Shown here piece by piece: positions 29,815 through 55,843 of a stretch of 64,000 bases of DNA; the first letter of the stretch is position 1; each line of letters starts with the position of its first letter. The position numbers and the translations under genes were made by a program. Under the pieces are notes generated by a model. It saw nothing but the letters and a program-made list of their open reading frames with translations. It made no database searches and had not been told where the DNA came from. Where the stretch lies: the NCBI RefSeq assembly GCF_014863405.1, contig NZ_JACZZA010000005.1, positions 62,001-126,000 of the forward strand. The letters are read 5' to 3'. This stretch comes from Dyella acidiphila (GTDB lineage: Bacteria > Pseudomonadota > Gammaproteobacteria > Xanthomonadales > Rhodanobacteraceae).

Positions 29815-32800
29815 TCAATCCACGGCGACGTATTTTTTGCGATCAAGCAAACGGCTGATACGCACCAGCAACTGCGTCGCCCCCACCGGCTTGAGCAAGG
29901 CATCGTCAAACGCAAACGCAAAGCCTTCCGGCGGCCGTGACGGCAACGACGAATACAGCAGCACCGGCAACCCCGAGTACGCCTGCCGCACATGCCGCAG
30001 CAGTTCCCAACCATCCATGCCCGGCATCACCTGATCGGTCACCACCAGGTTGACCGCCTGCTCGCCCAGCAAGGCCAGCGCCTGCTCTCCATCGGCCGCC
30101 GCCACGCTTTCGAAGCCAAAGCCATCCAGCAGATCGCACAGCATTTCCCGGTTCTGCGCATCATCGTCCACCACCAGGACCACGCGCCCGGCACCGTCGA
30201 TCTCGCCTGCACCGCCATCGTCCTCGAACAGGCCCGGCTCCAGCTCGGCTTCGTCGGCCAGCGCCACATCCAGCACAAAACCGAAACAGCTGCCGCCACT
30301 GGGCGCCGCCTCGATGGTCAGGCGGCTGCCCATGCGTTCGAGGATCTGCGTGACGATCGCCAGCCCCAGGCCGTAGCCGTTGTAAGGCGCGGCATTGCTG
30401 CCACGGGCAAACGGCAGCGACAAATGCTCGCGATCGGCCGGCTCGATGCCAATGCCGCTGTCCTCCACCACAAAGCGCAACTGCACGCGCCCCTGCGCTG
30501 CCGGCATCGCCGTAACCGCAAACAGGATGTAGCCGTCGTTGGTGAATTTGGCGGCATTGCCGATCAGGTTAAGCAGCACTTGCCGCAAACGCCGGAAATC
30601 CAGCGTGACCACGGCGGGCAGGTCTTCGGCATAGCGGCATTCGAAGCGATTGCGATACTTCTCGGCATGCAGCACCGCATGCTCGTTCAAGCTTTGCAAA
30701 AACGCGTGCAGATAACCCGGCGATTCCACCAGCTCCAGATCGGCAAGTTCATCGCGCGAGAATTCCAGCAGTTCGTCGATCAGGTCCAGCTGCTGGCGTA
30801 CGCTGCTTTCGATCAGGCCGGGATAATCCCGCTGCGCATCGCCGCCGCGCCAATGCCGCACGCTGTCGATGATGCCGCTGAGCGGCGAACGCAAATCGTG
30901 GCTGATGCGCGCCAGCAGCATGCTGCGCGCGCGCATCGCGTTCTGCAGCTGGCCGGTGCGGATCGCCACCGCCTGTTCCAGCCGTTGCGCGTGCTTCACC
31001 AGCAGCCGCACGCGCCAGCGCCAGGCCAGCACCAGCGCCAGCAGCGCCAGCAGCGCGGCCGCCGCATACGCGGCATTGCTGCGCCACCACGGCGGACTCA
31101 GGGTGAAGCGCAGGCTGACCGGCGCGGACACTCGGCGCTGATTGATGTCGATGGTTTCCAGCTCGAAGCGGTAACTGCCCGGCGGCAGCGAGGCATAGCG
31201 CAATTCGCGCGCCGACGCTTCCACCCAGTCGCTGTCGATACCCGACAGGCGATAGCGGAAGTGCACGGGGCTGCCGGAACTGTTGCCCAGCACCGCCAGG
31301 CGTAGCACCAGTGCGCCGGTCGGATCGAAATCCACCTGCTGATGTTGCGCATCGAGTTCATCCGCGCCGTAGTGGGCCGATTCCAGCCAGGGACGAATCT
31401 TGCGCGGCGCCAGCATGTCGTCCGGCTTGAGCAGATGCGACAAGCCGATCGGCGCGCCGATCCACACCGAGCCATCCGCATCCGCATAGAAAGCGCCGTG
31501 ATTGGTTTCGTCCCACAGCAGGCCGTCGCGCGTATCCAGGCGCATCCAATGATTCTGCTCCAGCACGTCCACGCCGCTGTTGTTGCCCACCCACAGACGT
31601 CCGCGCTGATCCTTGCGCAGGAAGTACACGCGCGAATCGGCCAGCAGCGGATCGTCCACGGCCGTGAGATGCATGCTGTCCGCATCGCCCACGTTGCCGA
31701 CCAGCAGGCCCGGTTGCGGCGAACTCAGCCACAGCCGTCCATCCGGCGTGGCCTGCACGCTCTCATAGCCGCCCAGGCTTTCGTGCGGCAACACACCCAC
31801 CTTGCTCCAGCGTCCGGCGGCATAGCGAAACAGGCCCGAGCTGCAGGCGGCCCACAGCCGGCCGGCCGTGTCCTCGGCGAGGTCCGAACACATCGAGGTG
31901 GGAATCAGCCCGGGCGCCGCGCGCTGGATGGCGCCGCTTTGTGCATCCACTTGGTAAAGACCGCCGAGGGCGTAGCCCCAGATCCGCCCCTGGCTGTCCT
32001 GGAAACCGCCGCGCATCAGGAACGGCAGCGTGGCCACCAGGCGCGTTGTGCTGCTGGCCGGGTCATAACGCAGCACGCGGCCGTCGAACATGAAATACCA
32101 GATCGAACCGTCGGCCGCCGCCAGCACGGTACGCGTCTGGTGCGGCGGCGCCAGTTGCAGCGGCCATGGCTGGGCATGGTCCTGCGCCGGCTCGATCACG
32201 CTGCCGCCCTGGTCGTCGGCCACCCATACGGCACCCGCGCGGGTGCGCGTGATCGACCAGATCAAGGAACCGCTCAGGCCTTGTGCCGCCGTCCAGTTCT
32301 CGACTGCGTCGCGGCTGCTCCAGTGCAGCAGGCCGCGGCCGTAGGTACCGAGCCACACGGTGTCATCCTGATCGACCAGCAAGGACGACACGCCCACCTT
32401 CGGCAGGCTGCCGTCGGCACCGAACAGCTCCCAGCTGTGCCCATTCCAGCGCGCCAGGCCCTGCGAACTGCGGGTGAGCACGCGGCCTTCGCGGTCCTGC
32501 ACGATATCGATGCTGGAAGCGGCCACGTCCGCGCTATTGCCCGGCATATCGTGCGCCACGAAGGCATCGCTGCCGGCCGGCAGCGCGCGCACCGTATGAA
32601 TGCCGCGCACCCATAAGCTGCCATCGCCAGCGCCGAGAAAACCCAGCCATTTGTCCGCCGGTACGTTGGACTCCGGACCGTAGCGGCGCAGTTGTCCCTC
32701 ATGCAGGCTGCATAGCTGACTGCCGCAGCCGAACCAGGTGATGCCACGGCGACGGAATACCGCGCTGACCTGGCTCAGGCCGGGAACATCGTGCAGTTGC

Positions 32801-33435
32801 TGCGCATTGAATGGCGAGCTGGCCTGCCAATGCCCCTGGCTATCGAGGCTGAGCCGCAGCAGATGATTGCCGCTCACCAGCCACAGGCCACCATCTTCGT
32901 CCGCGGCCAGGGTCTGGCCCCGGTCCGTCATCAGCGGCTTGCCTTGCGGACGCACCCAGCCGAAGTAGCCGTTCTCCCGCAACTGCAGGCCCGCGCGCGA
33001 ACCTACCCACAGGCGTCCCTTGGCATCCTCGATAAAACTGATCACTTCCGACACCTGGAAGCCTTGCTCGGAGCCGATCTGATCGAAGGCGACGCCGTCG
33101 AACCGGTACAAGCCCTTCTCGGTGCCGACCCAGATAAACCCTTCGCGATCCTGGTAAAGGCGGACCACCGACAGGCTGGTCAAACCGCTGTTCTGATCGT
33201 ATGTGGTAATCGGCAGCTGCGCCGCCGGCACCGGGGTCGACAGCATCGCGCTGACGAACAGCAGCCAGCCGCACAACGCAAGCCGCCGCCAGCGGATACC
33301 GGCGGCGCAAGCACAGCGCACCCGTTCGCATCCGCAACGACACGCGCGCGACGGCCAGATCAATGCATGGATAGAGATCACCTGCCGCAACCTTGCGCTG
33401 ACGGACCACCCACGCTTATCGGCCTCATCCTGCAT
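29815..33435 (-). CDS. hybrid sensor histidine kinase with beta-propeller (Reg_prop/Y_Y_Y) sensor
   Basis: One-protein two-component system of 1206 residues. A hydrophobic segment (about 50-72) is followed by a large periplasmic region of Reg_prop repeats (SVVRLYQDREGFIWVGTEKG, then several WVG/LWxA strands) and a Y_Y_Y domain (FRYRLSGIDSDWVEA ... LPPGSYRFELETID). A membrane segment (about 782-810) leads to the HisKA domain with H846 (ARISHDLRSPLSGI), an ATPase domain (NLIGNAAKFT, EDSGIGIEP, GYGLGLAIV) and a C-terminal receiver with D1134 (LVVTDQVMPGMDG) and K in ALLKPVG. Such kinases often sense carbohydrates or surface cues. The separate REC-AraC regulator nearby may receive its phosphate. 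Confidence 0.94.
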   Translation of the reverse strand: MQDEADKRGWSVSARLRQVISIHALIWPSRACRCGCERVRCACAAGIRWRRLALCGWLLFVSAMLSTPVPAAQLPITTYDQNSGLTSLSVVRLYQDREGFIWVGTEKGLYRFDGVAFDQIGSEQGFQVSEVISFIEDAKGRLWVGSRAGLQLRENGYFGWVRPQGKPLMTDRGQTLAADEDGGLWLVSGNHLLRLSLDSQGHWQASSPFNAQQLHDVPGLSQVSAVFRRRGITWFGCGSQLCSLHEGQLRRYGPESNVPADKWLGFLGAGDGSLWVRGIHTVRALPAGSDAFVAHDMPGNSADVAASSIDIVQDREGRVLTRSSQGLARWNGHSWELFGADGSLPKVGVSSLLVDQDDTVWLGTYGRGLLHWSSRDAVENWTAAQGLSGSLIWSITRTRAGAVWVADDQGGSVIEPAQDHAQPWPLQLAPPHQTRTVLAAADGSIWYFMFDGRVLRYDPASSTTRLVATLPFLMRGGFQDSQGRIWGYALGGLYQVDAQSGAIQRAAPGLIPTSMCSDLAEDTAGRLWAACSSGLFRYAAGRWSKVGVLPHESLGGYESVQATPDGRLWLSSPQPGLLVGNVGDADSMHLTAVDDPLLADSRVYFLRKDQRGRLWVGNNSGVDVLEQNHWMRLDTRDGLLWDETNHGAFYADADGSVWIGAPIGLSHLLKPDDMLAPRKIRPWLESAHYGADELDAQHQQVDFDPTGALVLRLAVLGNSSGSPVHFRYRLSGIDSDWVEASARELRYASLPPGSYRFELETIDINQRRVSAPVSLRFTLSPPWWRSNAAYAAAALLALLALVLAWRWRVRLLVKHAQRLEQAVAIRTGQLQNAMRARSMLLARISHDLRSPLSGIIDSVRHWRGGDAQRDYPGLIESSVRQQLDLIDELLEFSRDELADLELVESPGYLHAFLQSLNEHAVLHAEKYRNRFECRYAEDLPAVVTLDFRRLRQVLLNLIGNAAKFTNDGYILFAVTAMPAAQGRVQLRFVVEDSGIGIEPADREHLSLPFARGSNAAPYNGYGLGLAIVTQILERMGSRLTIEAAPSGGSCFGFVLDVALADEAELEPGLFEDDGGAGEIDGAGRVVLVVDDDAQNREMLCDLLDGFGFESVAAADGEQALALLGEQAVNLVVTDQVMPGMDGWELLRHVRQAYSGLPVLLYSSLPSRPPEGFAFAFDDALLKPVGATQLLVRISRLLDRKKYVAVD

Positions 33436-35866: not shown

Positions 35867-38800
35867 TTACCAGCCAATACCAAACGCCATGTGCTCCGGC
35901 TGCTGCGTGGTAATGGTGGTGCTCTGGTTGTTGTTGTCGTCGTAGGAGAAGCCGTAGGCCATGCCGCCGACCGAGTGCAGATGCCAGAACTGCGAGTAGA
36001 AGTTGGCGGGTGCGGATTGGTAGTAGCTTGCCGCATTCGCCCAGTTCGCCTGGGTCAGCAGTACGCCGCGGTTGGTGGCGGCGCAGATCTGGTTTTCCAG
36101 CTGCAGCTGGATGGCGTTTTCATCCTGTTGCTGCGGCGTGCTGCCGGCTACGCCGCTGGCCATGCTGCCGGCGCACAGCAGGATGTCCTGCGTGGACGGC
36201 TGCTGCACCACGAAGGTCTCGCCGACATTGGCCGCAGCCGGATTCACCTCGGTAAAGGTAAGCGTGGAGCCAGCGGCGGTGCCGTTGAACTGGCGACCGT
36301 TGACGGTGATGGTCACGGGCGTGCTGCTGTACTGGCCCCAGGCGCCGGCAATATAGCTATCGAAGTAGTTGCCGTTGGCGCCGCCGTTGCCGAAGGTGGT
36401 TTCCGCCGGCGACAGGATGCGCAGGTTGGTCGGCGCCGGGGTGTGGAACGCGGTCGGGGTCTGGCTGACGTATTCCTGATCCAGATCGGCGATCGATTCA
36501 TTGATGCCCATCTGCATGTGGAAGGTTTCCTTCGCGCCCCACACATCCAGCAGTAGCGGCAGGCCGAACTGGTTCACCTGGGTGGTGTTGATGTAGATGC
36601 CACCGGTGGCGTTGTAATTGAACTCATACCAGTCGTAGTGCACGTTGATATTCGGATCGGTGCCGTTGAGCGGGTTCGGTCCGGCATAGCCGTCGTTGCC
36701 GCCGTTTGCGCCGGCCATGATCGTCATGTAGAGCGGGCTGCCTTCGGAGATATAGATGCGTCCGGAGGTGATCGGCGGCAGCTTGAGCTGGTGGCTCTGG
36801 GCAAGGGTGAAGGCGTAGTTGGGATAGGTCTGCCCGTTCGGCGCCACCAGCGCATTGGCGGCGGTGTTGTCGGCGACGCTGGCCGGCGTCACGGTGCCGT
36901 CGTAGTTCACCCACGAGAGTGCGCCGGTGACCGGATCGTTGCCGAGGATCTCGACGTAGATCTGGTTATCCGCCCACTGGCCGTTGGTGTTGTTGTTGAG
37001 GTCGGTGATGATCGCGCCGGGCACCACGGTATACGTGGGCGCCAGGTTCACGCTCAGGCTTGCTGCCGACGAGTTCGCCGAGCCGGCCGAGTTGCTGACC
37101 GTGACGGTGAAGCTGCTGCTGTTGTCGGCATAGGTGGTACCCGGCGTGGTGTAGCTCGCGCCGGTGGCGCCGATGATGGCGGTGCCGTTCTTGTACCACT
37201 GGTAGCTGAGCGTATCGCCGGTAGCCACCACAGCGAAGGTGGCCGTGCGTCCGATCGTCACCGTCTGGCTGCTCGGCGAGGTGGTGACCGCGGGTGCGGT
37301 AACCGAGCCCGAACCGGATGCGGCCGTGGTGGTGATGGCGGTGTTGGAAGCCGGCGAGGTACCCGCCGTATTCACCGCTTCAACCACATAGGAGTACGTC
37401 GTCGATGCAGCAAGACCCGTGTCGCTGTACACCGTGCCGCTTACGCCGTTGGCAATTGCCGCGGCATTGCGCAGCACCGTATAGGTCACGCCTGACGTTG
37501 CCGAAGCATTCCAGCCGAGGTTGACGGCGCTGGAGGAAATCGCCGTGGCCGTGAGGTTGGTCGGCGCCACCGGCATCGCCATGGTGGTGGCAGTGGCCTG
37601 CGGCGTCGGTGCCGAAGTGCCGGCAGTGCTGGAGGCTTCCACCACGTAGTAGTACGTGGTGTTCACCGTCAGCCCGGTATCGGCATAGCTGTTGCTGTTG
37701 GCGGTAGCGATCTGGTTGGCGCTGGACGGCGTGAAGCCGGAGCTGGTGCTGCGGAACACGTCGTACACCACGCCGCTTACCGGGGATGCCGTCCAGCCGA
37801 GGTTGATCTGGCTGGCCGATACCGTGGTAGCCGTGAGCGCAGTGGCCGAACCGATCGGTGCGGACACCACCTCGATACCGTTGACTTCGGCATTGTCGGT
37901 GATGGTGGTGAATTGCAGCACGATCTGGCCCTGTGCATTGGCGGTGGCCGTGAACGGTTCGACGATGGCGACGTCCTGTGCACCGGCCGCGGCCACGATG
38001 TCGAAGTTGCTCAGTACCTGGGTGCCGTTGATCGCCACGTTGAACACACGCTGCCCGGCCTTGGTCCAGTAGAACTCGGCGAAGTGCAGGCGCACGGTGT
38101 AGCTGCTGCCGGCGGTGAGGCCGGTAAGCGTGTAGCTGAAGTTGTTGCCCACGCGCTGGTGCTGGTACACCGATTGCGGTGCCGGATTGATCACACCGGC
38201 CGTGCTGATGGTGGAACCGGTACCGGATGCGGCGCCGCCGGTGAAGTCTTCATCGGCCACATAGTCGCCCGATGCCGTGCCACCCGCGCTGATCGCCAGC
38301 ACATCCGAACCGCAGCCGCTGACGCAATCCACATTGAAGGTGGTGGCGGTGGCGGTGTTGGAAGCCGTCGAGGTGCCTGCCGCATCCACCGCTTCAATGG
38401 TGTAGGAGTACGTGGTAGCGGAGCTCAGGCCGGTGTCGTTGTAGCTGGTGGCGGTAAGGTTGCTGCTCACCGGCGTGCCGTTGCGGAACACCGTATAAGT
38501 GGCACCCGGAGTTGCCGAGCCGGTCCAGCTCAGGTTGATCTGGCTGGACGATGCCACTGTGGCAGCCAGGTTGGACGGTGCATTGGGCGGCGTGTTGGTC
38601 GCGGTGGCCGCCTGCACTTCGATACCGTTGACCTCGGCGTTGTCCTTCACCGACACGAACTGCAGCACGATCTGGCCCTGTGCATTGGCGGTAGCCGCAA
38701 ACTGCTCGGCAATGGCGATGTCCTGCCCGCCGGCCGCGGCGACGATATCGAAGTTGGTCAGCACCTGGGTGCCGTTGATGCTCACGTTGAACACGCGCTG

Positions 38801-41800
38801 GCCGGCCTGCGTCCAGTAGAACTCGGCGAAGTGCAGGCGCACCACATAGTTCGCACCGGGAGTCAGGCCAGGCAAGGTGTAGCTGAAGTTGCCGAAGCGC
38901 TGGTTCTGGTACACCGACTGCGGCGCCGGGTTGGTCACGCCATTGATATTGATGGTGGCGTTGCCGCCCGAGGCGGTGCCGCCGGTGAAATCTTCATCGG
39001 CTGCGAAATAGCCGGCACCGGGGCCGCCCGCGCTGATCGCGATGGCATCCGGGCTGCTGCAGTTGCTGGTGCAGGTCGATACGGGCGTGGTGGCCGTGGC
39101 GGTGTTGGAAGCCGCCGAAGCACCGGCCGCATCGTTGGCTTCAACGATGTAGTAGTAGGTAGCCGCAGCCGCTACGCCGGTATCCGCGTAGGTGGTACCC
39201 GACGTGGTGGCAACCTGGTTGGCGCTGGAAGGCGTGAAGCCGGCAGTGCTGCTGCGATAGATGGTGTAGCTCACCGTGCAGCCGGTGCCGGCATTGCTCG
39301 CACCCCAGCTCAGGCTGACCTGACTGGCGCTGTTGGCGGTGGCCGTGAGCGTACCCGGCGTGCCGGGCACTGCACTGCAGGTGTTCTGCTGCACGGTCAG
39401 CGTGGCGGGATTGCTGTTGACGGTGCCGAATACATCGGTGATCGCCACCGCGAATATCGCACCGTTGTCGCCTGCCGCCGTCGCCGGCGTGGTGTAGCTG
39501 GCCGCGGTGGCGCCGGCAATCGCGGTGCCGTTCTTCGACCACTGGTAACTGAGGCTGCCGAGACCGGTGGCCACGACGCTGAAGTTCGCCGTCTGGCCCA
39601 CGCCCACGACCTGGCTGGCCGGTTGCGTGCTGATGGTCGGTGCGGCACCGGCATCGGTGCCCGCGGTGCACAGCGTGGCGCCCGGATAATTGTTGGTGAC
39701 CTGATAAGCCGAGCTGCCGTCGAAGTTCACCAGCGCGGTCTTGCTGGAATCGTCCGGATCCACGGTCGAGGTCCAGGTGCTCCAGGTGCCGGAGAACGCG
39801 CAGGTCGCATTGTTGACGCTGCTGATGCTGTGCGCTTCGGACTGCGTGGGCAGGCGCATATTGATGCCTGCGCAATAGTTCTGCGCATTGACGCCGGTGA
39901 ACTGCGAGCCGGGCGCCGTGTCGGTCATGATGGTGCGCGTCCAGGTCAGGCCGGTGAGGTTGTCCTTCACCAGGCTGGCGTTGGAAGCATTGACGGTATA
40001 GCGCTCGCCTGCCCCGCCGCACTGCGGCACGTTGTAGACCTGGAACTCGTAGACCGAATAGCCGTACTGCGTGGCGCGCTGGATACCGTTCAAGCGGATA
40101 TAGCGGCCGCTTACGCTCGGGAAGTTGAGCGTCTCCGTACCGCCGGTGCCGGCGTTATTGGTGTACGCCACATTCCAGGTCGGATTGGTGGACGGATCCT
40201 GGTCGGTGTACAGAATCTGGTACTGGGTGGCGTAGGCGTTTTCCCAGTTGATGATCACCGTATTGAAAGCCTGCACCGAACCCAGGTCGATCTGCAGCCA
40301 CGACGGATCCACGCCCGGCACGGCCGGTGTCGGCGGCGCACCGGCGGTGGCCGAACCCCAGCGGGTGCCCAGGCTGCCGTCGACGGCATTCTCCGGACCG
40401 AGACAGCCGGTGCCGGTGTACGGCGGTGAAGTGGTGCCGTCATTGCAGGCGTTCTGCGTGCTGCTGGAGGTAGCCAGCGCATTCAAGGCGAGGTTCACGC
40501 CCGGCGGCGCCAGCGTGATCTGCGCGGCATTGGTAGTCACCGCCGCACCGGCGGCATTGTTGACCGTCACGCTGTACGCACCCACGTTCGCCGCGCTTAC
40601 GGCGGGAATCGTGTAGGTCAGCGTGCTCGACAGCTGCGTGCCACTGGTGAGAATGGTGGGACTGCCGCCCGGCGGCGTGAATTGCCACTGGTAGCTATAC
40701 GGCGCGGAACCGGCCACCACGGCCGTGAACTGCACCGGCTCGTTCACCGGCACGATGGTGCTGGCCGGCTGCGTAGCGACGGACACCGGCGTGGCGGCAT
40801 CGATAGTCACCACGGCATTGTTGGATTGCGTGGTGCCCAGGTCGTTGCCCACCACCACGTAATACGTGGCGCTGCCGGCCGCCGTGAATACCGGCGTGGT
40901 GTACGAAGCTTGATTGGCGCCGGCAATCGCGCCCGAGCCAAGCTGGTACCACTGATAAGTAATGGTCGGCGAGCCGGTAGCGGCTACCGTCAGGGTCGCC
41001 GATTGTCCATCCACTACCGACTGCGTCGCCGGCTGCGTGGTGATCACTACATTGGCAGGCGCATCCACGCTGAGCGTTACCGGCGTGGAAGTGACCGTGC
41101 CGAGGCTGCTGCCGATGGTGACGGTGAAGGTGTCGCCGTTATCCGCCGACGTAGTAGCCGGCGTGGTGTAGGTGGCACCGGTGGCACCGGCGATCGGGCC
41201 GTGCGCATCGGACCACTGGTAGCTGAGCGCACCCGAACCGGAAGCCACCACGCTGAACGTGGCCGGATAACCGGAGGTGGTGGCCTGGCTGACCGGCGGC
41301 ACGATGATCACCGGCGCCTGCGATTGCGCAACAGCCGGCGGTGCTACCGAGCTCAAGCTGATGCTGGCGCTCTGCAACCCCGGCGCGGTAGCGGTAACCG
41401 TCACCGTGCCCGGCACAAAGGTGCTGCGCAGCGCGATCTTCTGCAGACCGCCTTCGAAATTCAGTTCCGGATCGCCGGGTGCGTGGAAGAACGCATACGG
41501 CACACCCTGGATCACATTGCTATTGGCCTGCGAGAAAGCATCCTGGTAGTAGTTGGTCCAGGACGGATCGGCCACCAGCTGCTGCGTGCCGCCCATATAC
41601 GTTGCCGCGCCGCTCACCGCGAAGGTGACGTTGTCGGCCGCGGTCGGCACCAGGTTGCCATTGGCGTCTTCGACCTGCGCCACCACAAAAGCCGCATCCG
41701 AACCGTTGGCGGTCCACTGGAAGCTGCTGCCGTCGGGCTTGGTCACTTCCGGCACCACGCTCAGCACGATCTTGTTTTCCGCACCGGCCGTGGTGCGCGT

Positions 41801-44206
41801 ATCGCTGACGCCGTCCACCGGATTGCCGTTGGCATCCAGGCACAGCGCCGTAACCGTGCCCGGCGCCCAGTTCACCATCCAGTGCACCTGCCCCGGCATC
41901 ACGGTGGTGTTCTGCCCGAGGTTGGAGCTGGAATTGATATTCCACGGATTGGGCGTCTGATCCTGCAGCACCGTGCCGGTGACCGGATCGTTCGGCACGC
42001 CATTGATCAGCAGGCGCACCGCCGGGCAGTTGCTGAAGGCGTTTTCCTGGATCGGCGTGCCCTGGGTGTATTCGTAGGCGCGGTTCCAGTGATGCGCCAG
42101 ATGCACCACCGGCTGGACCGAATAGGGAATCCAGTTGGCCTGGTAGATGTAGTACAGCAGGCGCGGGAAGCGGTTCGCGTCGGTCGAGGAATAACCCAGC
42201 GAGCGCACGAAGTTCACCATGTTGGGCAGGTTCTGATATTCCGCCCACAGGCTCACTTCACCCGGCGATTCGGCGAAATACCACTGCGCCATGCCGAACG
42301 CATTGGCTGCCCTGCCCTTGCGCCAGTCGTCCAGATACGGCGCGGCGAAGGCCAGTTCGTAGTCATAGGCCAGGCCGCGGCCGGTGCCCATGTTGTCCCA
42401 GTATTCGGCGCCGAAGGCCGGATTGTTCGGGTTCTGCTGCTTGTTGCCGGCTTCGCAGCCGGCGCCGTCGCATTCGTCGATCAGGCCGTAGGAAGAGCTA
42501 TAGGTACGGTCGGCGCTACCGCGCGGATTGATATTGTCCCAGGTGGTCTCGATGCTGCCCAGCTCGGTCGCCAGCGTGGCGTTCATGCCGCCGTTGTCGC
42601 GCTCCCAGTCGAGGATCGAGGGATGGCTGCGGTCGCGGATGATCATGTCGCGATGCAGTTCCTGCTTCAGCTGCAGGTCGTCGGCGGTGGGATTGGAACT
42701 GGCGTTCCAATAGCCTTCGCCGTCGCCGCTGGGCTGGTCGATCATGATGCCGTAGGCATCGGCCGCTTCCACCATTTCTTCGCTGCTGGTGGAGTGGCCC
42801 GGACGCCATACATTGCCGCCCTGCGCGGCGATCTGCGCCATGTCGCGCCACCACTGCTCATCGGGTACGGACGAACCCAGCGCCGGATAGTCGTAGCGGC
42901 TGGAACCGCCCCACAGATACACCGCGTGGCCGTTGAAATACGGGAAATTCGCATCCCAGGTAATGGTGCGGATGCCCAGCCGATCCTGAGTGGAATCCAC
43001 CACCACGCCATTGACGCTGACGATGTGATAGACCTTGTACAGATACGGCGAACCGCACAGCACCGGCGGCGTGCCGCAGGTGGCGTTGTTCGGATACCAC
43101 AAGGTGGGATTGGGCACGGTGATCAGCTGATCGAACATCGGCTTGGCGCCGGACGGGAACGAGCTGGCCGTCATCGCCGGCACCGATTGCGTGACCGGAT
43201 CGACGGTAACCACCACGTTGCCCTGCGCGTCGACGATCTGCGTGGTCAGCGTCACCTGCTGCGCCGACTGCGTTTCGTTCACCACATTGGTCTGCACGTC
43301 GACCACCGCCGATGCCGCCTTGGCGGTGCCCTGCGCAGCCGGCACTTCCGACACGGTGCCGACGTAGGTGCCCCAGGTCTTCTGGTTCGAATACACATTC
43401 GGCGGGATATGCACCGGGTTGGTGACATACAGCTTCACGTTGCGGAACAGGCCGGCCATGGCCTGGCCGAAACGGAACGCGCCGGAGAAGCCCGGCTGCT
43501 CGAACCACGGCGCACCGCGCGAGACATCGATGGCGATGACGTTGTCGGTGCTGCCGTCCGCCTTGATATAAGGCGTGAGATCGACCACCACCGGGATAAA
43601 GCCCACCACGTGCGTGGCCTGCGCATCGGCCGCCACCGCACTGACGCCCGGCAGCAAGGTGCCGTTGATAAAGATCTGGATGCCGGTGTGCGAGCCTTCC
43701 ACGTTCAACAGGAATTTCTGCCCGGCGTACTTCGGATCCACCTTGAAATGCAGGCGATACCAGTTGAAGTTGCCGGTCAGCGAACCCTGGCCGCCGCCCG
43801 ACGTCTGGTTGATAAAGGTGCGCGTGATATTGGCGTCGTACGGCAGGCCTACCTGGAACCAGTTGCCGCTGCTGTCGCTGCTTTCATTGAAGCTTTGCGC
43901 CGAGTACGCGGTGGAGTTGTTGCTGTTCTCGAACCACCAGTTGTTCTGCGCCGCATTCGACGTGGAGCTGGCATTGCCGATGTACTGCGGCATGCCGGCG
44001 GCCAGGTTGATGGTCAGACGCTGCGAGATGGGCAGCGAGGGCTCCACCTCCTGGCTGTTGGCCATGCCGGTCAGCGCCAGCAGCGCGACCAGCAGCAGCA
44101 ACAGCCCGCCTGCCTTGGGAGAGCCGGCATGCCTTGCCGCACGGGAGCGGGCAAAACTGCATGTCCAGGCCACGAACTGCCATGTACGCAACGCATACGG
44201 TTTCAC
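35867..44206 (-). CDS. giant secreted multimodular glycoside hydrolase: GH2-like plus GH64-like
   Basis: A 2779-residue exported protein. After a signal segment (LLLLLVALLALTGMANS) comes a GH2-like unit (about 55-960): sugar-binding jelly roll, Ig-like part, then a barrel with FNGHAVYLWGG, DRSHPSILDWERDNGG (535-540) and GAEYW (E601, likely nucleophile). Then follow three Ig-like domains, an F5/8-type lectin domain (about 1235-1395), a DUF1566 part, Ig and FN3 domains, two malectin/CBM57 domains (about 1719-1866 and 1969-2114), two FN3 and an Ig domain. The C-terminal part (2392-2779) resembles GH64 beta-1,3-glucanases (IYVEILGND, SGRIYISEGSPLYM, DWYEFNYN, INTTQVNQFGLPL). The expected GH2 acid/base Glu (after N538) and GH64 Asp (N2545) are replaced. 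GTG 44206 follows AGGGGGACGACA. Confidence 0.85.
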   Translation of the reverse strand: MKPYALRTWQFVAWTCSFARSRAARHAGSPKAGGLLLLLVALLALTGMANSQEVEPSLPISQRLTINLAAGMPQYIGNASSTSNAAQNNWWFENSNNSTAYSAQSFNESSDSSGNWFQVGLPYDANITRTFINQTSGGGQGSLTGNFNWYRLHFKVDPKYAGQKFLLNVEGSHTGIQIFINGTLLPGVSAVAADAQATHVVGFIPVVVDLTPYIKADGSTDNVIAIDVSRGAPWFEQPGFSGAFRFGQAMAGLFRNVKLYVTNPVHIPPNVYSNQKTWGTYVGTVSEVPAAQGTAKAASAVVDVQTNVVNETQSAQQVTLTTQIVDAQGNVVVTVDPVTQSVPAMTASSFPSGAKPMFDQLITVPNPTLWYPNNATCGTPPVLCGSPYLYKVYHIVSVNGVVVDSTQDRLGIRTITWDANFPYFNGHAVYLWGGSSRYDYPALGSSVPDEQWWRDMAQIAAQGGNVWRPGHSTSSEEMVEAADAYGIMIDQPSGDGEGYWNASSNPTADDLQLKQELHRDMIIRDRSHPSILDWERDNGGMNATLATELGSIETTWDNINPRGSADRTYSSSYGLIDECDGAGCEAGNKQQNPNNPAFGAEYWDNMGTGRGLAYDYELAFAAPYLDDWRKGRAANAFGMAQWYFAESPGEVSLWAEYQNLPNMVNFVRSLGYSSTDANRFPRLLYYIYQANWIPYSVQPVVHLAHHWNRAYEYTQGTPIQENAFSNCPAVRLLINGVPNDPVTGTVLQDQTPNPWNINSSSNLGQNTTVMPGQVHWMVNWAPGTVTALCLDANGNPVDGVSDTRTTAGAENKIVLSVVPEVTKPDGSSFQWTANGSDAAFVVAQVEDANGNLVPTAADNVTFAVSGAATYMGGTQQLVADPSWTNYYQDAFSQANSNVIQGVPYAFFHAPGDPELNFEGGLQKIALRSTFVPGTVTVTATAPGLQSASISLSSVAPPAVAQSQAPVIIVPPVSQATTSGYPATFSVVASGSGALSYQWSDAHGPIAGATGATYTTPATTSADNGDTFTVTIGSSLGTVTSTPVTLSVDAPANVVITTQPATQSVVDGQSATLTVAATGSPTITYQWYQLGSGAIAGANQASYTTPVFTAAGSATYYVVVGNDLGTTQSNNAVVTIDAATPVSVATQPASTIVPVNEPVQFTAVVAGSAPYSYQWQFTPPGGSPTILTSGTQLSSTLTYTIPAVSAANVGAYSVTVNNAAGAAVTTNAAQITLAPPGVNLALNALATSSSTQNACNDGTTSPPYTGTGCLGPENAVDGSLGTRWGSATAGAPPTPAVPGVDPSWLQIDLGSVQAFNTVIINWENAYATQYQILYTDQDPSTNPTWNVAYTNNAGTGGTETLNFPSVSGRYIRLNGIQRATQYGYSVYEFQVYNVPQCGGAGERYTVNASNASLVKDNLTGLTWTRTIMTDTAPGSQFTGVNAQNYCAGINMRLPTQSEAHSISSVNNATCAFSGTWSTWTSTVDPDDSSKTALVNFDGSSAYQVTNNYPGATLCTAGTDAGAAPTISTQPASQVVGVGQTANFSVVATGLGSLSYQWSKNGTAIAGATAASYTTPATAAGDNGAIFAVAITDVFGTVNSNPATLTVQQNTCSAVPGTPGTLTATANSASQVSLSWGASNAGTGCTVSYTIYRSSTAGFTPSSANQVATTSGTTYADTGVAAAATYYYIVEANDAAGASAASNTATATTPVSTCTSNCSSPDAIAISAGGPGAGYFAADEDFTGGTASGGNATININGVTNPAPQSVYQNQRFGNFSYTLPGLTPGANYVVRLHFAEFYWTQAGQRVFNVSINGTQVLTNFDIVAAAGGQDIAIAEQFAATANAQGQIVLQFVSVKDNAEVNGIEVQAATATNTPPNAPSNLAATVASSSQINLSWTGSATPGATYTVFRNGTPVSSNLTATSYNDTGLSSATTYSYTIEAVDAAGTSTASNTATATTFNVDCVSGCGSDVLAISAGGTASGDYVADEDFTGGAASGTGSTISTAGVINPAPQSVYQHQRVGNNFSYTLTGLTAGSSYTVRLHFAEFYWTKAGQRVFNVAINGTQVLSNFDIVAAAGAQDVAIVEPFTATANAQGQIVLQFTTITDNAEVNGIEVVSAPIGSATALTATTVSASQINLGWTASPVSGVVYDVFRSTSSGFTPSSANQIATANSNSYADTGLTVNTTYYYVVEASSTAGTSAPTPQATATTMAMPVAPTNLTATAISSSAVNLGWNASATSGVTYTVLRNAAAIANGVSGTVYSDTGLAASTTYSYVVEAVNTAGTSPASNTAITTTAASGSGSVTAPAVTTSPSSQTVTIGRTATFAVVATGDTLSYQWYKNGTAIIGATGASYTTPGTTYADNSSSFTVTVSNSAGSANSSAASLSVNLAPTYTVVPGAIITDLNNNTNGQWADNQIYVEILGNDPVTGALSWVNYDGTVTPASVADNTAANALVAPNGQTYPNYAFTLAQSHQLKLPPITSGRIYISEGSPLYMTIMAGANGGNDGYAGPNPLNGTDPNINVHYDWYEFNYNATGGIYINTTQVNQFGLPLLLDVWGAKETFHMQMGINESIADLDQEYVSQTPTAFHTPAPTNLRILSPAETTFGNGGANGNYFDSYIAGAWGQYSSTPVTITVNGRQFNGTAAGSTLTFTEVNPAAANVGETFVVQQPSTQDILLCAGSMASGVAGSTPQQQDENAIQLQLENQICAATNRGVLLTQANWANAASYYQSAPANFYSQFWHLHSVGGMAYGFSYDDNNNQSTTITTQQPEHMAFGIGW

Positions 44207-44382
44207 TGTCGTCCCCCTTCGGACACCAGATTTGGATGAGCATGGCCACCGCTGGCCAAAACCCGCGCACGGCAACGCATGGCTACCACCTCACCCAGGG
44301 TGCGCCAACCATTGCCACATCGGAAAAGCAGTGCCGCCGACGAGTGAGGAAGTTCGTCCGGCGGCAGTTACTGAATGATCAT

Positions 44383-45989: not shown

Positions 45990-46049
45990 GGCGACCCGTT
46001 GCATCGGGCTGATATCGTGTCCAGCCCACTCATCCGCAGGAAGCCTTCG

Positions 46050-47099
46050 ATGACGACGAAAAACGCAACGATCAAAGATGTGGCACGCGAGGCGAAGGTC
46101 TCGGTGGCATCGGTGTCGCGCGTGCTCAACGGTACCGGCGGAGTAACGCCCCAGACGCAAAAGGTGGTGCGGGAAGTCGCCGCCCGCCTGCATTACGTGC
46201 CGGACAGCGCGGCGCGCAGCCTGATCACCGGCCGCACCCACACCATCGGCGCGGTGCTGCCGGACCTGTATGGCGAGTTCTTCTCCGAACTGATCCGCGG
46301 CATCGATCTGGCTGCGCGTGCCCGTGGCCTGCATCTGCTGGTGTCCAGCTCGCATGACGGCGTGGACGATGCCGCCGCCGCGGTGCGCGCCATGCGCGGG
46401 CGCGTCGACGGCATGCTGATTTTTTCCGAATACGTCGACGCCGCCTTCCTGGACGCCAACCTGCCGGCGGCGCTGCCGGCCGTGCTGCTCAACAGCGCGG
46501 TAAAAAGCGCGCGCTACCCGGTGCTGACCATCGACAACCGCGGCGGCGCCAGCGCGATGGTGCAGCACCTGATCGAAAGCGGCCGCAAGCGCGTGGCCTT
46601 TATCGCCGGCTCCAAAACCAACTTCGATGCGCAGCAGCGCGACAAGGGCTATCGCGCGGCGATGGCCAAGTTCGCGCCGGACCTGCCGTTGAATATCGTG
46701 CCTGGCGACTTCAGCGAAGAATCGGGCTACCGCGCGGGCGTCGAACTGCTCGCGCAGAAAAAGCGCCCGGATGCCGTATTCGCCGCCAACGACATGATGG
46801 CGGTGGGCTGCCTGATGGCGTTCAAGCAGGCCGGCGTGCAGGTGCCGCAGGAGATCGCCCTGGCCGGCTTCGACGACATCCTGATCGCGCGCTACGTCTC
46901 GCCCTCACTCAGCACCGTGCAGGTGCGCATTGCCGATCTTGGCCGGGCCGCATTGGAGCGCCTGGCTGCCTTGCTGGATCCGGACGCCAACACGCCGGCT
47001 CCGGCCCAGACGCTGGGATGCGACATCGTCGTTCGAGAAACCAGCGGCGGAAGCACCGGTGCGGCAAGCACGCGCCGGCCCCGTCGCCCACCTAAATAA
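46050..47099 (+). CDS. LacI-family transcriptional regulator of the glucan locus
   Basis: A 349-residue repressor. The N-terminal helix-turn-helix and hinge are clear: ATIKDVAREAKVSVASVSRVL, then HYVPDSAARSLITGRTHTIGAVLPD. The sugar-binding core follows (YGEFFSELIRGIDLAARARGL, VLTIDNRGGASAMVQHLI, DAVFAANDMMAVGCLMAF, ALAGFDDILIARYVSPSLSTV). I chose ATG 46050, with AGGA eleven bases upstream, over 45999, because the family start is MTTKNATIKDVA-like. It begins the operon with the TonB receptor gene 33 bases downstream. Its sites are probably the TGTAAACGTTTACA palindromes here and at 58924. Confidence 0.94.
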   Translation: MTTKNATIKDVAREAKVSVASVSRVLNGTGGVTPQTQKVVREVAARLHYVPDSAARSLITGRTHTIGAVLPDLYGEFFSELIRGIDLAARARGLHLLVSSSHDGVDDAAAAVRAMRGRVDGMLIFSEYVDAAFLDANLPAALPAVLLNSAVKSARYPVLTIDNRGGASAMVQHLIESGRKRVAFIAGSKTNFDAQQRDKGYRAAMAKFAPDLPLNIVPGDFSEESGYRAGVELLAQKKRPDAVFAANDMMAVGCLMAFKQAGVQVPQEIALAGFDDILIARYVSPSLSTVQVRIADLGRAALERLAALLDPDANTPAPAQTLGCDIVVRETSGGSTGAASTRRPRRPPK

Positions 47100-47132
47100 C
47101 AGCACAGAGTCAATCTCTTGGGAGGGGTGACA

Positions 47133-50132
47133 ATGAAAGCAGTAGTACGCACCAGAAAGTTGCTGCTTGCACGCATGATCGTCGCATCGATAAGCGCCGC
47201 CGCGGTGTCGCCGGCAGCGGTCTTTGCCCAGACTTCCGATGCAAACCTGCGTGGATCAGTCACCCCCAACACGACGGTTACCGCCAGGAATGTGGCCACC
47301 GGCTATACGCGTGTCACCAAGTCCGGCAACGACGGCAGTTACGCGCTGGTCGCGCTGCCGCCCGGCACTTACCAGATCGATGCCGGGCCGGGTACCGAAC
47401 GCACCGTCACCCTCAGCGTAGCTTCCACCGCCACCTTGAATCTCACCGCCGCCACGGCCACAGCCGGCGCCAATGCGAAAAACCTGGGCGCGGTCACCGT
47501 CAATGCCCAATCGCTGACCGAAGTGACCACCTCGGAAATCGGCAGCATCGTGTCGCAGCGGCAGATCGCCACCGTGCCGCAGATCACGCGCAACTTCCTG
47601 GAATTTGCCGACACCGTGCCCGGCATGGTGTTCACCGTGCAGCAGAACGGCAATACCAGCCTGCAATCCGGTGCCCAGGCATCTTCCGCGATCAACGTGT
47701 ATATCGATGGCGTCGGCCAGAAAAACTATGTGCTGCCCGGCGGCGTCAGCGGCCAAACCTCCAGCCAAGGCAATCCGTTCCCGCAGCTGGCGATCGGCGA
47801 ATACAAGGTGATCACCTCCAACTACAAGGCCGAATACGACCAGATCTCCAGCGCCGCGGTCACCGCGGAAACCAAGTCCGGCACCAATGAATTCCATGGC
47901 GAAGTATTCGGCGACTGGACCGATACCGCCTTGCGCGCCGAAACGCCGTCCGAGCAGGCAGACCGCAAGAAGCAGCCCTCGCACGACAAGGAATACGGCT
48001 TCGCCTTCGGCGGCCCGATCATCCAGGACAAGGCGCATTTCTTCGTGTCCTACGAGGGCAAGGAATACGACACGCCGATCGCCGTCTCGCCTGGCAATGC
48101 CAGCAACCTGGTACCGCAGTTGCCGGCTTCGGCACAGGCGCAGCTGGGTCCGGCCAGCCTGCCGTTCAAGGAAAATCTCTATTTCGCCAAGCTGGACTGG
48201 GAGCCGACCAACCGCGACCGCATCGAGGTCAGTGGTAAATACCGCAGCGAGAATTCCATCAGCGGTCCCGGCACGGGGCAAGCGGCCTCCACTGCCGTCG
48301 ACTTGATCAATTACGACAAGCGCTTCGACATCCGCTGGGATCACAGTGCGGACAGCTGGTTCAACCGCCTGCAATTCACTTACGAGAATGCGTTCTACAA
48401 GCCGACGCCGATCGAAATCGGCAACGGCTACGCCTACTTCACCACGCCCGACAACGGCAGCCAGCAAATCCTCGCCGTGGGTGCGGCATCGCCGCTGGCC
48501 ACCGAGGACAAAGGCCAGAAGGGGCCGGCCGTGCAGGACGATCTCACCTTCAACGACTTCACCTGGCATGGCGACCACGTGATCAAGATGGGTTTCAAGA
48601 TCAAGAAGGTGGATCTCACCGCACAGGATGCGGGCGACGACAATCCGCAGTTCTTCTATGACGTGACGCCGACCGGCACGCTGTCCACGCCATACCAGGT
48701 GCAGTTCCCGGTGATCCTGCCCGGCACCAATCCGGAGGTGCGCACCTCGGACAAGCAGTACGGCACCTACATCCAGGACGACTGGACCGTCAACGACCAT
48801 CTCACCTTGAACATCGGCGTGCGCTGGGATTACGAAGAGACGCCCTCGTATCTCAACTGGGTGACGCCGCCGGCCGTGGTCGCTGCGCTGTACAGCCAGG
48901 ATCCCAATGCGCCGGCCGGCCAGACCTATGCGCAAAGCCTGGCCAAGGGCGGCATCAACGTCAACGACTACATCAGCAATGGTCGCAACCGCAGCTCGCC
49001 CGATAACGAGTGGCAGCCGCGCTTCGGTTTCTCCTACGACATCGACGGCGACGAAGCGCATGTGATCCATGGCGGTGTCGGCCGCTCCTACGATCGCGAT
49101 CTGTATGAACTGCTGCAGTTGGAACAAACCAAGCTGGCGCTGGCCGAACCGGAAATCATCTTCCCCAATCAATATCACTCATGTGCGCCGAGTCCGAGCT
49201 GCATTCCGTGGAATCCGGCGTATTACGGCGGCGTAGGCGTCCTGCAGAGCCTGCTGGCCGCCACCACCGCGGGCCGCGAAGTGGATATGGTGACCAATCA
49301 TCTGAAGGCGCCCTATTCCGATCAGATCAGCTTGGGTATGCGCAACAAGGTCGGTGACTGGAATACCGACGTGACCGTCGCGAGCGTGAAAAGCTTCGAC
49401 GGCCTGGTGTACCAGCTCGGCAATCGCTATCCCAATGGCGCGTTCTGGGAGAACGGCAGCCAGCCATGGGGCAATGGCATTCCCGGCTTCGGCAATATGA
49501 TCATTGCCAACAACGGGCTGGAGACCAAGACCACGCAAGTGCTGATCTCGGCCGAAAAGCCGTATACGCCCGAATCGCATTGGGGCATGACGGTCGCCTA
49601 CACCTTCACCCATGCGCTGCAGAACAACGACAGCCAGGACGTCACCGATCAATACGCCTTCGATGAAGAAACCATCGGCCAGTATCCGTTTATCGGCTCG
49701 GCGGTAGCCAAGCATCGCCTGGTCAGCACGGCCTCGGTCGACGGGCCATGGGGCCTGCTGTTCGCCACCAAGTTGACCCTGGCCACGCCGATTCCCGGCC
49801 TTGGGCTGGCCTGCTACGGCGCCAATACGCCGAGCGGCTGCGTACCCTTCACCGCCACGCCGCCCGGTTCGCACTTCCTGATCGGCGGCCCGATCTTCGG
49901 TTACCGCGCCATCGACTTCCAGATCACCAAGAACTTCAAGATCTACAGCAATTTCGACGGCTATGTACGCTTCGACCTGCTGAACGCGTTCAACTGGAAC
50001 AACTTCAGCGATTACCTGCAGAACTACGGCGCCAACGGCGTGCTCACGCGCACCCCGATCACCTTCAACCCTACCGGCAATATCGACGGCGTGCCGCGCA
50101 CGCTCAAACTGACCCTGGGTATAAAGTTCTGA
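47133..50132 (+). CDS. TonB-dependent outer-membrane receptor (Oar-like)
   Basis: Outer-membrane importer of 999 residues, likely for beta-glucan oligosaccharides given its operon. Signal peptide region RMIVASISAAAVSPAAVFA; then a carboxypeptidase-like regulatory domain (SDANLRGSVTPNTTVTARNV, GSYALVALPPGTYQIDAG, about 35-95); a plug domain (about 130-250, with INVYIDGVGQKNYVLPGG and NYKAEYDQISSAAVTAETKSGTNEFHGEVFG); and a beta-barrel ending TLKLTLGIKF with the C-terminal Phe. ATG 47133 follows the strong GGGAGGGG. The enzyme gene starts three bases after its stop. Confidence 0.93.
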   Translation: MKAVVRTRKLLLARMIVASISAAAVSPAAVFAQTSDANLRGSVTPNTTVTARNVATGYTRVTKSGNDGSYALVALPPGTYQIDAGPGTERTVTLSVASTATLNLTAATATAGANAKNLGAVTVNAQSLTEVTTSEIGSIVSQRQIATVPQITRNFLEFADTVPGMVFTVQQNGNTSLQSGAQASSAINVYIDGVGQKNYVLPGGVSGQTSSQGNPFPQLAIGEYKVITSNYKAEYDQISSAAVTAETKSGTNEFHGEVFGDWTDTALRAETPSEQADRKKQPSHDKEYGFAFGGPIIQDKAHFFVSYEGKEYDTPIAVSPGNASNLVPQLPASAQAQLGPASLPFKENLYFAKLDWEPTNRDRIEVSGKYRSENSISGPGTGQAASTAVDLINYDKRFDIRWDHSADSWFNRLQFTYENAFYKPTPIEIGNGYAYFTTPDNGSQQILAVGAASPLATEDKGQKGPAVQDDLTFNDFTWHGDHVIKMGFKIKKVDLTAQDAGDDNPQFFYDVTPTGTLSTPYQVQFPVILPGTNPEVRTSDKQYGTYIQDDWTVNDHLTLNIGVRWDYEETPSYLNWVTPPAVVAALYSQDPNAPAGQTYAQSLAKGGINVNDYISNGRNRSSPDNEWQPRFGFSYDIDGDEAHVIHGGVGRSYDRDLYELLQLEQTKLALAEPEIIFPNQYHSCAPSPSCIPWNPAYYGGVGVLQSLLAATTAGREVDMVTNHLKAPYSDQISLGMRNKVGDWNTDVTVASVKSFDGLVYQLGNRYPNGAFWENGSQPWGNGIPGFGNMIIANNGLETKTTQVLISAEKPYTPESHWGMTVAYTFTHALQNNDSQDVTDQYAFDEETIGQYPFIGSAVAKHRLVSTASVDGPWGLLFATKLTLATPIPGLGLACYGANTPSGCVPFTATPPGSHFLIGGPIFGYRAIDFQITKNFKIYSNFDGYVRFDLLNAFNWNNFSDYLQNYGANGVLTRTPITFNPTGNIDGVPRTLKLTLGIKF

Positions 50133-50135
50133 ACC

Positions 50136-51608
50136 ATGAGCCGGAACGATCGTTGCCAACCGAAGCAGGCCCGCAGCTGGCGGGCCTGCTTCTTCACCGC
50201 CCTGCTGGCCACAGGCATCGCCATGCAGCCGACTGCGGCACAGACGCCCGTCACCTACGACAGCTTGTCCGCACCGCAAAAGCAGCTGGTCGATGACCTG
50301 CAGCGGCGTACTTTCCAATGGTTCTGGGACAGTGCCAATCCGGCTAACGGGCTGATTCCGGATCACTATCCGGGACCGTCGTTTTCCAGCATTGCCTCGA
50401 TCGGCTTCGGCCTGACCGCGTATGGCATCGGCGTCGAACGCGGCTACATCACGCGTGCGCAGGCGGTAGCGCGCACGCTCACCACCTTGCGCTTTCTCGC
50501 CCACGCCAGGCAGGACGGCAATGAAGACGGCGCCAGCGGCTACCACGGCTTTTTCTATCACTTCCTGGATATGCAGACCGGCCAGCGCTTTTCGCGCGAC
50601 ATCGAACTGTCCAGCGTGGATACCACCTTGCTGCTTGGCGGCGTGCTGTTCGCGCAGTCGTATTACGACCGCGACACCGCGCAGGAAAAAGAAATCCGTA
50701 CCCTGGCCGATACGATCTACCGCCGTGTCGACTGGACCTGGATGCAGCCGCGCGCCCCCCTGATCAGCATGGGCTGGACGCCCGGCGGCAAATTTATCGA
50801 CTCTGACTGGAAGGGCTACGACGAAGGCATGCTGGTGTACATCCTGGCGCTGGGCTCGCCCACCCATCCGATCGGCAGCGACGGCTGGACGGCATGGACC
50901 AGCACCTATCCCAGGCAATGGGGCACGTTCCAGGGCCAGACCTTGCTCAACTTCGCGCCGCTGTTCGGCCATCAGTACAGCGAAGCCTGGGTCGATTTCC
51001 GCGGCATCCGCGATGCATGGAGCCGCGCACATCAGCTGGATTACTTCGAGAACAGCCGCCGCGCGGTCTATGCGCAGCGCCAGTACGCCATCGCCAATCC
51101 AGGCCACTGGACCGGCTATGGCGCGAATATCTGGGGGCTTACGGCCTGCAATGGACCGGGCGATGTCGCCGGCAAGGCGATCGACGGCAGCACGCGCCAG
51201 TTCTTCGGCTACACCGCACGCGGCGCCGGGCTGGACTACATCTCCGACGACGGCACCATTGCGCCCACCGCTGCCGGCGGCTCGATCGCCTTCGCACCGG
51301 AAATCGTGCTGCCGGCCTTGCAGGCGATGAAGGAGCGCTACGGCCAGTACGCTTACGACCGCTACGGCTTCGTCGACGCCTTCAATCCCAGCTTCGATGC
51401 GAATATTGCCTTGCATACCGGCAAAAAAGTGCGCGGCGCCGGCTGGTTCGACAGTCTGCAGATCGGCATCGACCAGGGACCGATCGAGCTGATGATCGAA
51501 AACTGGCGCAGCGATTTCGTCTGGCGCGTGATGCGCAAGAATCCATACATTCGGCAAGGACTGCAGCGCGCCGGTTTCAGCGGCGGATGGCTGGACCGGG
51601 CGCCATGA
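50136..51608 (+). CDS. GH144-like (glucoamylase-fold) periplasmic hydrolase, probably on beta-1,2-glucan
   Basis: Exported 490-residue enzyme (signal segment ACFFTALLATGIAMQPTAAQ). Family features of PF10091/GH144 are LVDDLQRRTFQWFWDSANPANGLIPDHYP, SIASIGFGLTAYGIGVERGYI, GFFYHFLDM, ELSSVDTTLLLGGVLFAQ, YDEGMLVYILALGSPTHPI, WGLTACNGPG, GTIAPTAAGGSIAFAPE and GYGFVDAFNPS-like RYGFVDAFNPSFD. Characterised GH144 members cut beta-1,2-glucan or release sophorose from it, so the operon probably feeds on beta-1,2-glucooligosaccharides. Its stop overlaps the next start (ATGA). A 31-base perfect hairpin is embedded in codons 9-19. Confidence 0.85.
   Translation: MSRNDRCQPKQARSWRACFFTALLATGIAMQPTAAQTPVTYDSLSAPQKQLVDDLQRRTFQWFWDSANPANGLIPDHYPGPSFSSIASIGFGLTAYGIGVERGYITRAQAVARTLTTLRFLAHARQDGNEDGASGYHGFFYHFLDMQTGQRFSRDIELSSVDTTLLLGGVLFAQSYYDRDTAQEKEIRTLADTIYRRVDWTWMQPRAPLISMGWTPGGKFIDSDWKGYDEGMLVYILALGSPTHPIGSDGWTAWTSTYPRQWGTFQGQTLLNFAPLFGHQYSEAWVDFRGIRDAWSRAHQLDYFENSRRAVYAQRQYAIANPGHWTGYGANIWGLTACNGPGDVAGKAIDGSTRQFFGYTARGAGLDYISDDGTIAPTAAGGSIAFAPEIVLPALQAMKERYGQYAYDRYGFVDAFNPSFDANIALHTGKKVRGAGWFDSLQIGIDQGPIELMIENWRSDFVWRVMRKNPYIRQGLQRAGFSGGWLDRAP
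50162..50192 (+). other. strong hairpin inside the 5' coding region of the GH144 gene
   Basis: GAAGCAGGCCCGC and GCGGGCCTGCTTC form a perfect 13-base stem around AGCTG, 30 bases after the TonB receptor stop codon. It lies where an intercistronic attenuator or 3'-end stabiliser for the receptor mRNA would be expected, but it is inside the next coding sequence (residues PKQARSWRACF). Partial termination or mRNA processing here could keep receptor levels above enzyme and ABC levels. Confidence 0.6.
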
Positions 51609-54581: not shown

Positions 54582-54620
54582 GAGGCCGGTGTGACGCGGT
54601 ATCGCCCAAACCGGTCTGCG

Positions 54621-55712: not shown

Positions 55713-55796
55713 CGGGATGCATCACTCCGGGTAAAGACGAACCAGGCCGCATACACGCGGCTTGGTACCAGCGCTGCGCCGCACTATTCTCGTCGC

Positions 55797-55808
55797 GTAA
55801 TCGATTAC
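55797..55808. promoter_or_regulatory. LacI-type palindrome between ATPase and GH1 genes
   Basis: GTAATCGATTAC is a perfect 12-base palindrome with central CG, in context CGTAATCGATTACA. It differs from TGTAAACGTTTACA by the inner bases (ATCGAT instead of AACGTT) and sits 36 bases upstream of the GH1 ATG. It may bind the same LacI protein or a paralogue encoded elsewhere. Confidence 0.65.
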
Positions 55809-55843
55809 ATCAAGCCGCATCGCCGCATACAAGGTTTTACAAC

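Follow-up and report, generated by a model that had tools for sequence, protein, structure and literature searches.

A single gene in the window (the whole stretch of 64,000 nucleotides that was analysed) encodes a 2779-residue protein with a GH2-type glycosidase unit at one end and a GH64-type unit at the other. This GH2-GH64 protein represents a widely shared enzyme family, and the surprising part is the identity of the residues in both active sites together with a likely move of the gene between phyla. The reading preferred here, tentatively and with slightly less than even confidence, is that the protein is a secreted, self-contained enzyme for beta-1,3-glucan walls, derived from Acidobacteriaceae, in which the acid catalyst of the GH2 unit would be displaced and the GH64 unit would use asparagine as its base. 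This last element is favoured slightly, and a GH64 unit that serves for binding is nearly as probable.

Domain organization of the protein

The GTG start of the gene is preceded by a GGGGG stretch that resembles a ribosome site, and a TTG at 44275 is a possible alternative start. The GC3 of the frame is 0.84, so its codon use is gene-like. The database holds the protein's own copy (P0001). The gene and its modules are laid out as follows, with the basis of each assignment in brackets.

35867..44206, minus strand: complete gene of 2779 codons and a stop, starting with GTG at 44206 (reading frame, domains)
44027..44206, minus strand: first 60 residues, including a hydrophobic stretch that resembles an export signal, GLLLLLVALLALTGMANSQE (read off the translation)
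41327..43981, minus strand: GH2 unit, residues 76-960 (Pfam, PDB relatives, model, Foldseek match to 6hpd)
40052..40429, minus strand: F5/8 type C module, residues 1260-1385 (Pfam, solved relatives)
39701..39973, minus strand: Lcl_C/DUF1566-like region, residues 1412-1502 (below the Pfam cut-off)
38615..39109, minus strand: first malectin-type module, about residues 1700-1864 (Pfam, translation)
37904..38302, minus strand: second malectin module, residues 1969-2101 (Pfam)
37064..37567, minus strand: FN3 (2214-2291) and Ig (2305-2381), ahead of GH64 (Pfam)
35882..37006, minus strand: GH64 domain, residues 2401-2775 (Pfam, solved GH64 relatives)

The hydrophobic stretch at the N-terminus suggests that the protein is exported or secreted. 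A preliminary description, made from the sequence alone, had proposed the two glycosidase units at the two ends, and the domain search supports both. Pfam families above cut-off were GH64, Malectin (in two stretches), Ig, FN3, F5/8, Glyco_hydro_2, Glyco_hydro_2_C and GH2_C5. The N-terminal unit is confirmed as GH2-type by PF00703 and PF02836 scoring above cut-off, by its predicted fold and by Foldseek; GH2_N fell short of its cut-off of 28 bits in hmmscan (22.6 bits) but reached 28.9 bits at the same place in another search. Glyco_hydro_64 scored 264.8 bits against a cut-off of 27 (E 1.8e-78). Among the linking modules that had been named, Ig, F5/8, FN3 and the two malectin modules were recovered, but DUF1566 (Lcl_C) stayed under its cut-off (28.3 versus 34.9 bits).

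Distribution of the architecture

The architecture had also been thought undescribed. In the literature searched, which left most subscription papers outside, no account was found of a GH2-GH64 architecture, the GH2 motif or an asparagine base in GH64. Two papers mention a GH64 protein (PMC8802321 and PMC6252331), and their accessible portions do not give its architecture. In sequence collections, however, the architecture is widespread rather than unique. A search with the protein returned 680 full-length database matches, and GH64 was present in 111 of the 120 of these that were listed, according to Pfam and, identically, to an HMM built from the named loci. Among 41 named loci encoding the GH2 unit, tblastn placed GH64 downstream in the same frame in 35. 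In L046 a GH64-like tail at the end was overlooked by tblastn, and L047 runs off its contig. The GH2-unit proteins of L055, L056, L057 and L059 end without GH64. In one 3243-residue relative (P0112), a unit of the GH2 clade is accompanied by GH16, CBM6-type and FN3 modules, and the C-terminal tail resembles GH64, a likeness not listed by Pfam.

The architecture occurs in Dyella, Rhodanobacter, Luteibacter, Acidobacteriaceae (Edaphobacter, Granulicella, Silvibacterium and others) and Chitinibacteraceae (Silvimonas and Amantichitinum). Like the Dyella protein, those of Acidobacteriaceae, Luteibacter and Chitinibacteraceae carry GH2, F5/8 and GH64 in a single frame. The genome carrying the gene is 5.07 Mb in size and its nearest named relatives are Dyella. 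A GH64 match was found in 22 of 100 sampled genomes, its own included. Fifteen further genomes of the genus were in the sample: 12 carry GH64 in frames of 2773-2831 codons, two carry it only in a frame of ~600 codons and one lacks it. In other genera of the family, two genomes have GH64 frames of 2352 and 2398 codons.

Phylogeny of the GH2 unit

In a tree of 42 GH2 units, the 14 rows of the Dyella/Rhodanobacter group (the Dyella group, starred in the tree) are nested within Acidobacteriaceae. Their neighbours are L037, a metagenome bin with 87% identity to the window, and L040, a complete genome with 84%. Copies from Luteibacter lie far from those of Dyella although they belong to the same family, and they are possibly paralogues. 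Both Rhodanobacteraceae as one clade (p-AU 1.6e-29) and Acidobacteriaceae as one clade (p-AU 1.3e-40) were rejected, in tests whose constrained groups were chosen after the midpoint-rooted tree had been inspected. Because the Dyella copies fall inside Acidobacteriaceae, a transfer between phyla is likely. The simplest reading is that an ancestor of the Dyella/Rhodanobacter group acquired the gene from Acidobacteriaceae. Such a passage of an 8.4-kb single gene among soil bacteria would be a clean example of a large enzyme transferred whole. A contig binned under Candidatus Eremiobacteraeota (L053) supplies one of the 14 rows; its copy is typical of the Dyella group (91% identity), and the assignment is probably a binning error.

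The GH64 unit and its asparagine

Catalytic residues of glycoside hydrolases are usually taken as fixed. According to the accessible part of one account, the GH64 catalytic pair consists of a glutamate donor and an aspartate base (PMC8394091). In the GH64 domain of the window the donor is retained, but the base position is occupied by asparagine.

36623..36625, minus strand: Glu2528, GH64 proton donor (conservation; role after PMC8394091)
36572..36574, minus strand: Asn2545 (AAC), where GH64 enzymes have the base Asp (alignments, solved relatives)
36401..36403, minus strand: Glu2602, a position that changes together with 2545 (sequence covariation)

The solved GH64 beta-1,3-glucanases 9vp9, 5h4e and 5h9x match the domain over its full or nearly full length (E 4e-69 to 8e-50) and share the donor glutamate, but they carry Asp at the base position. 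In a set made up of the window and 35 named loci, Asn2545 was found in 14 of 14 Dyella-group rows, whereas all 22 rows from Acidobacteriaceae, Luteibacter and Chitinibacteraceae had Asp, and one change on the tree accounts for this pattern. In wider lists, comprising 99 of the 120 listed full-length relatives and 115 proteins from a second list that all cover the site, Asn occurred in 47 and Asp in 167. Twelve of the 111 GH64-bearing listed relatives (13 by a stricter span) are too divergent to be aligned at the catalytic positions and do not enter these counts. Trees of 128 and 203 rows, from which segments shorter than 300 residues or outside 330-460 were excluded, each need three changes from Asp to Asn, i.e., about three origins. 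A search for the Asn signature in 369 genomes of the class gave two matches, the window and L072.

Could the asparagine reflect a decaying domain or a sequencing error? The median omega across the 14 Dyella-group genes (91 pairs) was 0.087 for GH64, compared to 0.065 for GH2 and 0.105-0.171 for the linking modules. Purifying selection on the GH64 domain is thus strong. Furthermore, the Asn2545 codon is AAC in four of these genes and AAT in ten, which indicates that Asn was retained across synonymous change. The low omega and the codon mix rule out both explanations.

Replacement of a catalytic base Asp by Asn usually abolishes hydrolysis. It is quite possible, at rather less than an even chance, that the GH64 unit of the Dyella group lost hydrolysis and now binds beta-1,3-glucan, tethering the GH2 enzyme to the wall, with selection keeping the groove and not the chemistry. 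The catalytic base is absent throughout the group, likely binding modules are already plentiful along the chain, and a low omega is equally compatible with a conserved groove. In addition, the genome of the window encodes a second GH64 protein (L010, a 606-codon frame) that retains Asp at the base. The cell thus has no need of the giant protein's GH64 unit for hydrolysis, which counts against an asparagine base. However, a unit that only binds could dispense with the proton donor, yet this was Glu in all 213 proteins covering the site, the Asn rows included. Furthermore, for 10 of the 15 congeneric genomes the long Asn protein is the only GH64 match, and about three independent origins of Asn also argue against a purely binding role.

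Support for an asparagine base comes from analogy with other families. Several families have been proposed to use an amide base, namely GH43_24, GH45 (subfamily C), GH95 and GH139 (PMC12282258 and PMC10909974). GH45 subfamily C, GH95 and GH139 are inverting and Asn was proposed as their water activator, which parallels the reading of Asn2545 proposed here; in GH139, an Asp was proposed to activate the base Asn. These families are unrelated to GH64, and a role proposed or shown there would extend to Asn2545 by analogy.

The residue at position 2602 differs with that at 2545. In the 203-row set, rows with Asp2545 had Lys (113), His (27), Gln (2), Asn (2), Ser (1) or Thr (1) at 2602, i.e., Lys or His in 140 of 146, whereas rows with Asn2545 had Glu (52), Gln (4) or Gly (1), i.e., Glu or Gln in 56 of 57. 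The pair looks like a contact in which a positive partner of Asp was replaced by a hydrogen-bond partner of Asn. A covariation test had three independent pairs, too few for significance, and one of the origins has Gly. The Asn2545 protein P0322, too short for the 203-row set, seems to have Asn at the motif matching 2602. Together with the four Gln rows and the Gly row, it indicates that a Glu partner is not required. L040, which clusters with the Asn rows in the GH64 tree despite having Asp2545, carries Gln at 2602 and is possibly an intermediate state. Asp and Asn versions of GH64 occur in nature on otherwise similar chains, and since this natural pair lies one tree step apart, the question whether an amide can stand in for the base is directly testable.

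The GH2 unit and its altered acid/base

The GH2 unit was modelled from a 73-row alignment (pLDDT 85.4, pTM 0.91); an earlier model from a 5-row alignment (pLDDT 35) was set aside. Its best Foldseek match is 6hpd, a solved GH2, and the top rows of Foldseek and VIA are all GH2. Conservation was read from an alignment of 227 rows, consisting of the window and 226 proteins (P0001, the window's own, among them), with identities of 45-92%. Fourteen of 240 proteins with aligned residues outside 700-1150 were left out, and P0017 lacked the GH2 motif pattern.

42716..42718, minus strand: Glu497, past barrel strand 3, candidate substitute acid/base (alignment; Glu in 6hpd too)
42587..42607, minus strand: WERDNGG, residues 534-540, barrel strand 4, with Gly539 at the position of the GH2 acid/base Glu (alignment, PDB relatives)
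42404..42406, minus strand: Glu601, GH2 nucleophile position (GAEYWD), strand 7 (alignment)

Position 539 was Gly in 221 rows, Ser in three and Ala in three; Glu was found in none of the 227. In other words, the clade has the motif WExxNG in place of the canonical WSxGNE. The GH2 structures 7cwd and 4ypj have WSIGNE, in which Asn-Glu closes strand 4, and three other GH2 proteins of the window's own genome (L001, L002 and L004) also show Asn-Glu there; L003, a fourth other GH2 match, was not caught by the pattern and is left out of this control. Glu535, Asn538, Glu601 and Glu650 were found in 227 of 227 rows and Glu497 in 226. The named set agrees with this pattern in 42 of 42 rows, all of them with Glu497. 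The unit is a GH2-fold clade with an altered acid/base and not a canonical GH2.

The structure 6hpd shares this condition. It has lost the acid/base Glu (WEGGNW) and has a Glu aligned with Glu497. It differs in that Trp, not Gly, follows the Asn, its identity to the Dyella unit is 24-28%, and its 990-residue chain has no fused GH64. The chain is named beta-galactosidase although the entry is titled beta-glucuronidase, and no relevant publication on 6hpd was found in the literature searched. A beta-galactosidase label given to the protein by some database sources is not established, since the NCBIfam GalA beta-galactosidase model (NF041462) scored 222.8 bits against an equivalog threshold of 900. 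Many members of this clade carry such a label at their source, so both the labels and the assumed mechanism need checking.

Which residue would act as the acid? In the model Glu497 lies after strand 3 and adjoins strand 4, which makes it the leading candidate for a displaced acid/base, ahead of Glu535, which lies within strand 4. The GH2 unit probably still works as an enzyme, its acid catalyst having moved. There is precedent for such a shift, as catalytic carboxylates moved and the mechanism changed within GH97, according to the accessible part of PMC2670981.

Two further explanations concern both units at once. An ordinary bifunctional enzyme with standard GH2 and GH64 mechanisms would fit the clear presence of both families, but it is very improbable because the Gly at the GH2 acid/base and the Asn at the GH64 base are clade-wide rather than private errors. 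Alternatively, both units could be pseudoenzymes, the protein then serving as a scaffold or an adhesin for attachment to fungal or plant surfaces. The incomplete canonical catalytic pairs and the many adhesive-type modules agree with this. It is nevertheless improbable, for the GH2 nucleophile and three more carboxylates are invariant or nearly so across the aligned range of identity, beyond what a scaffold needs, and most relatives outside the Dyella group retain the GH64 Asp.

Proposed target and mode of action

The nearest solved relatives of the F5/8 module are F5/8-type modules of a Paenibacillus glucanase/chitosanase (4zy9 and kin, E 7e-24). The Paenibacillus modules bind chitosan; the Dyella module is their kin in sequence. 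Malectin-type modules bind glucosides. GH64, the kinship of the F5/8 module and the GH16 in P0112 together suggest a fungal-wall-like target, and the likely target is a fungal or other beta-1,3-glucan-rich wall. The same hints lend partial support to an earlier proposal of stepwise attack on a branched polysaccharide; as both units depart from their family's catalytic pair, however, ordinary hydrolysis at either end is not to be assumed.

In the preferred reading, a multimodular secreted protein would be aimed at beta-1,3-glucan-rich walls, above all fungal ones. The F5/8 and malectin modules, judged by their relatives, would hold the wall. The GH2 unit would act through the conserved nucleophile Glu601 and a nonstandard acid catalyst, for which Glu497 is the first candidate. 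In the GH64 unit, with Glu2528 kept as donor, Asn2545 may activate water with the aid of Glu2602 in an inverting reaction. A stronger version holds that the GH64 base switched repeatedly from Asp to Asn, with Lys/His changing to Glu/Gln at 2602, in domains that still hydrolyse beta-1,3-glucan, and that the GH2 acid/base moved to another strand. This combination is doubtful. If true, both halves of a single enzyme would run on non-textbook chemistry.

Genomic neighbourhood

Divergent from the giant gene, on the plus strand (45999-57238), lie sugar-use genes, encoding a LacI-type regulator, an outer-membrane receptor with a carboxypeptidase regulatory domain, a PF10091 'glycoamylase', an ABC permease and a GH1 enzyme. 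Conserved neighbours (LacI, TonB-receptor, PF10091, ABC permease, GH1, sensor-kinase and DUF4440) were sought in flanks of up to 10 kb at the 41 named loci and were not conserved. The sole matches were LacI, ABC and GH1 at 32-43% identity in L059 and a weak kinase match in each of L032 and L052. The absence of GH1 elsewhere says little because the window's own GH1 gene lies just outside such a flank.

Downstream of the giant gene, on the minus strand (29815-33435), lies a two-component hybrid sensor that contains propeller repeats and belongs to the glycan-sensing kind. Further along the same strand, a gene at 16549-26832 encodes a 3427-residue two-partner-secretion adhesin with an extended signal, a filamentous-haemagglutinin N-terminal domain and 21 YDG-domain stretches, and a gene for a ShlB-type transporter (14795-16552, minus strand) comes next after it.
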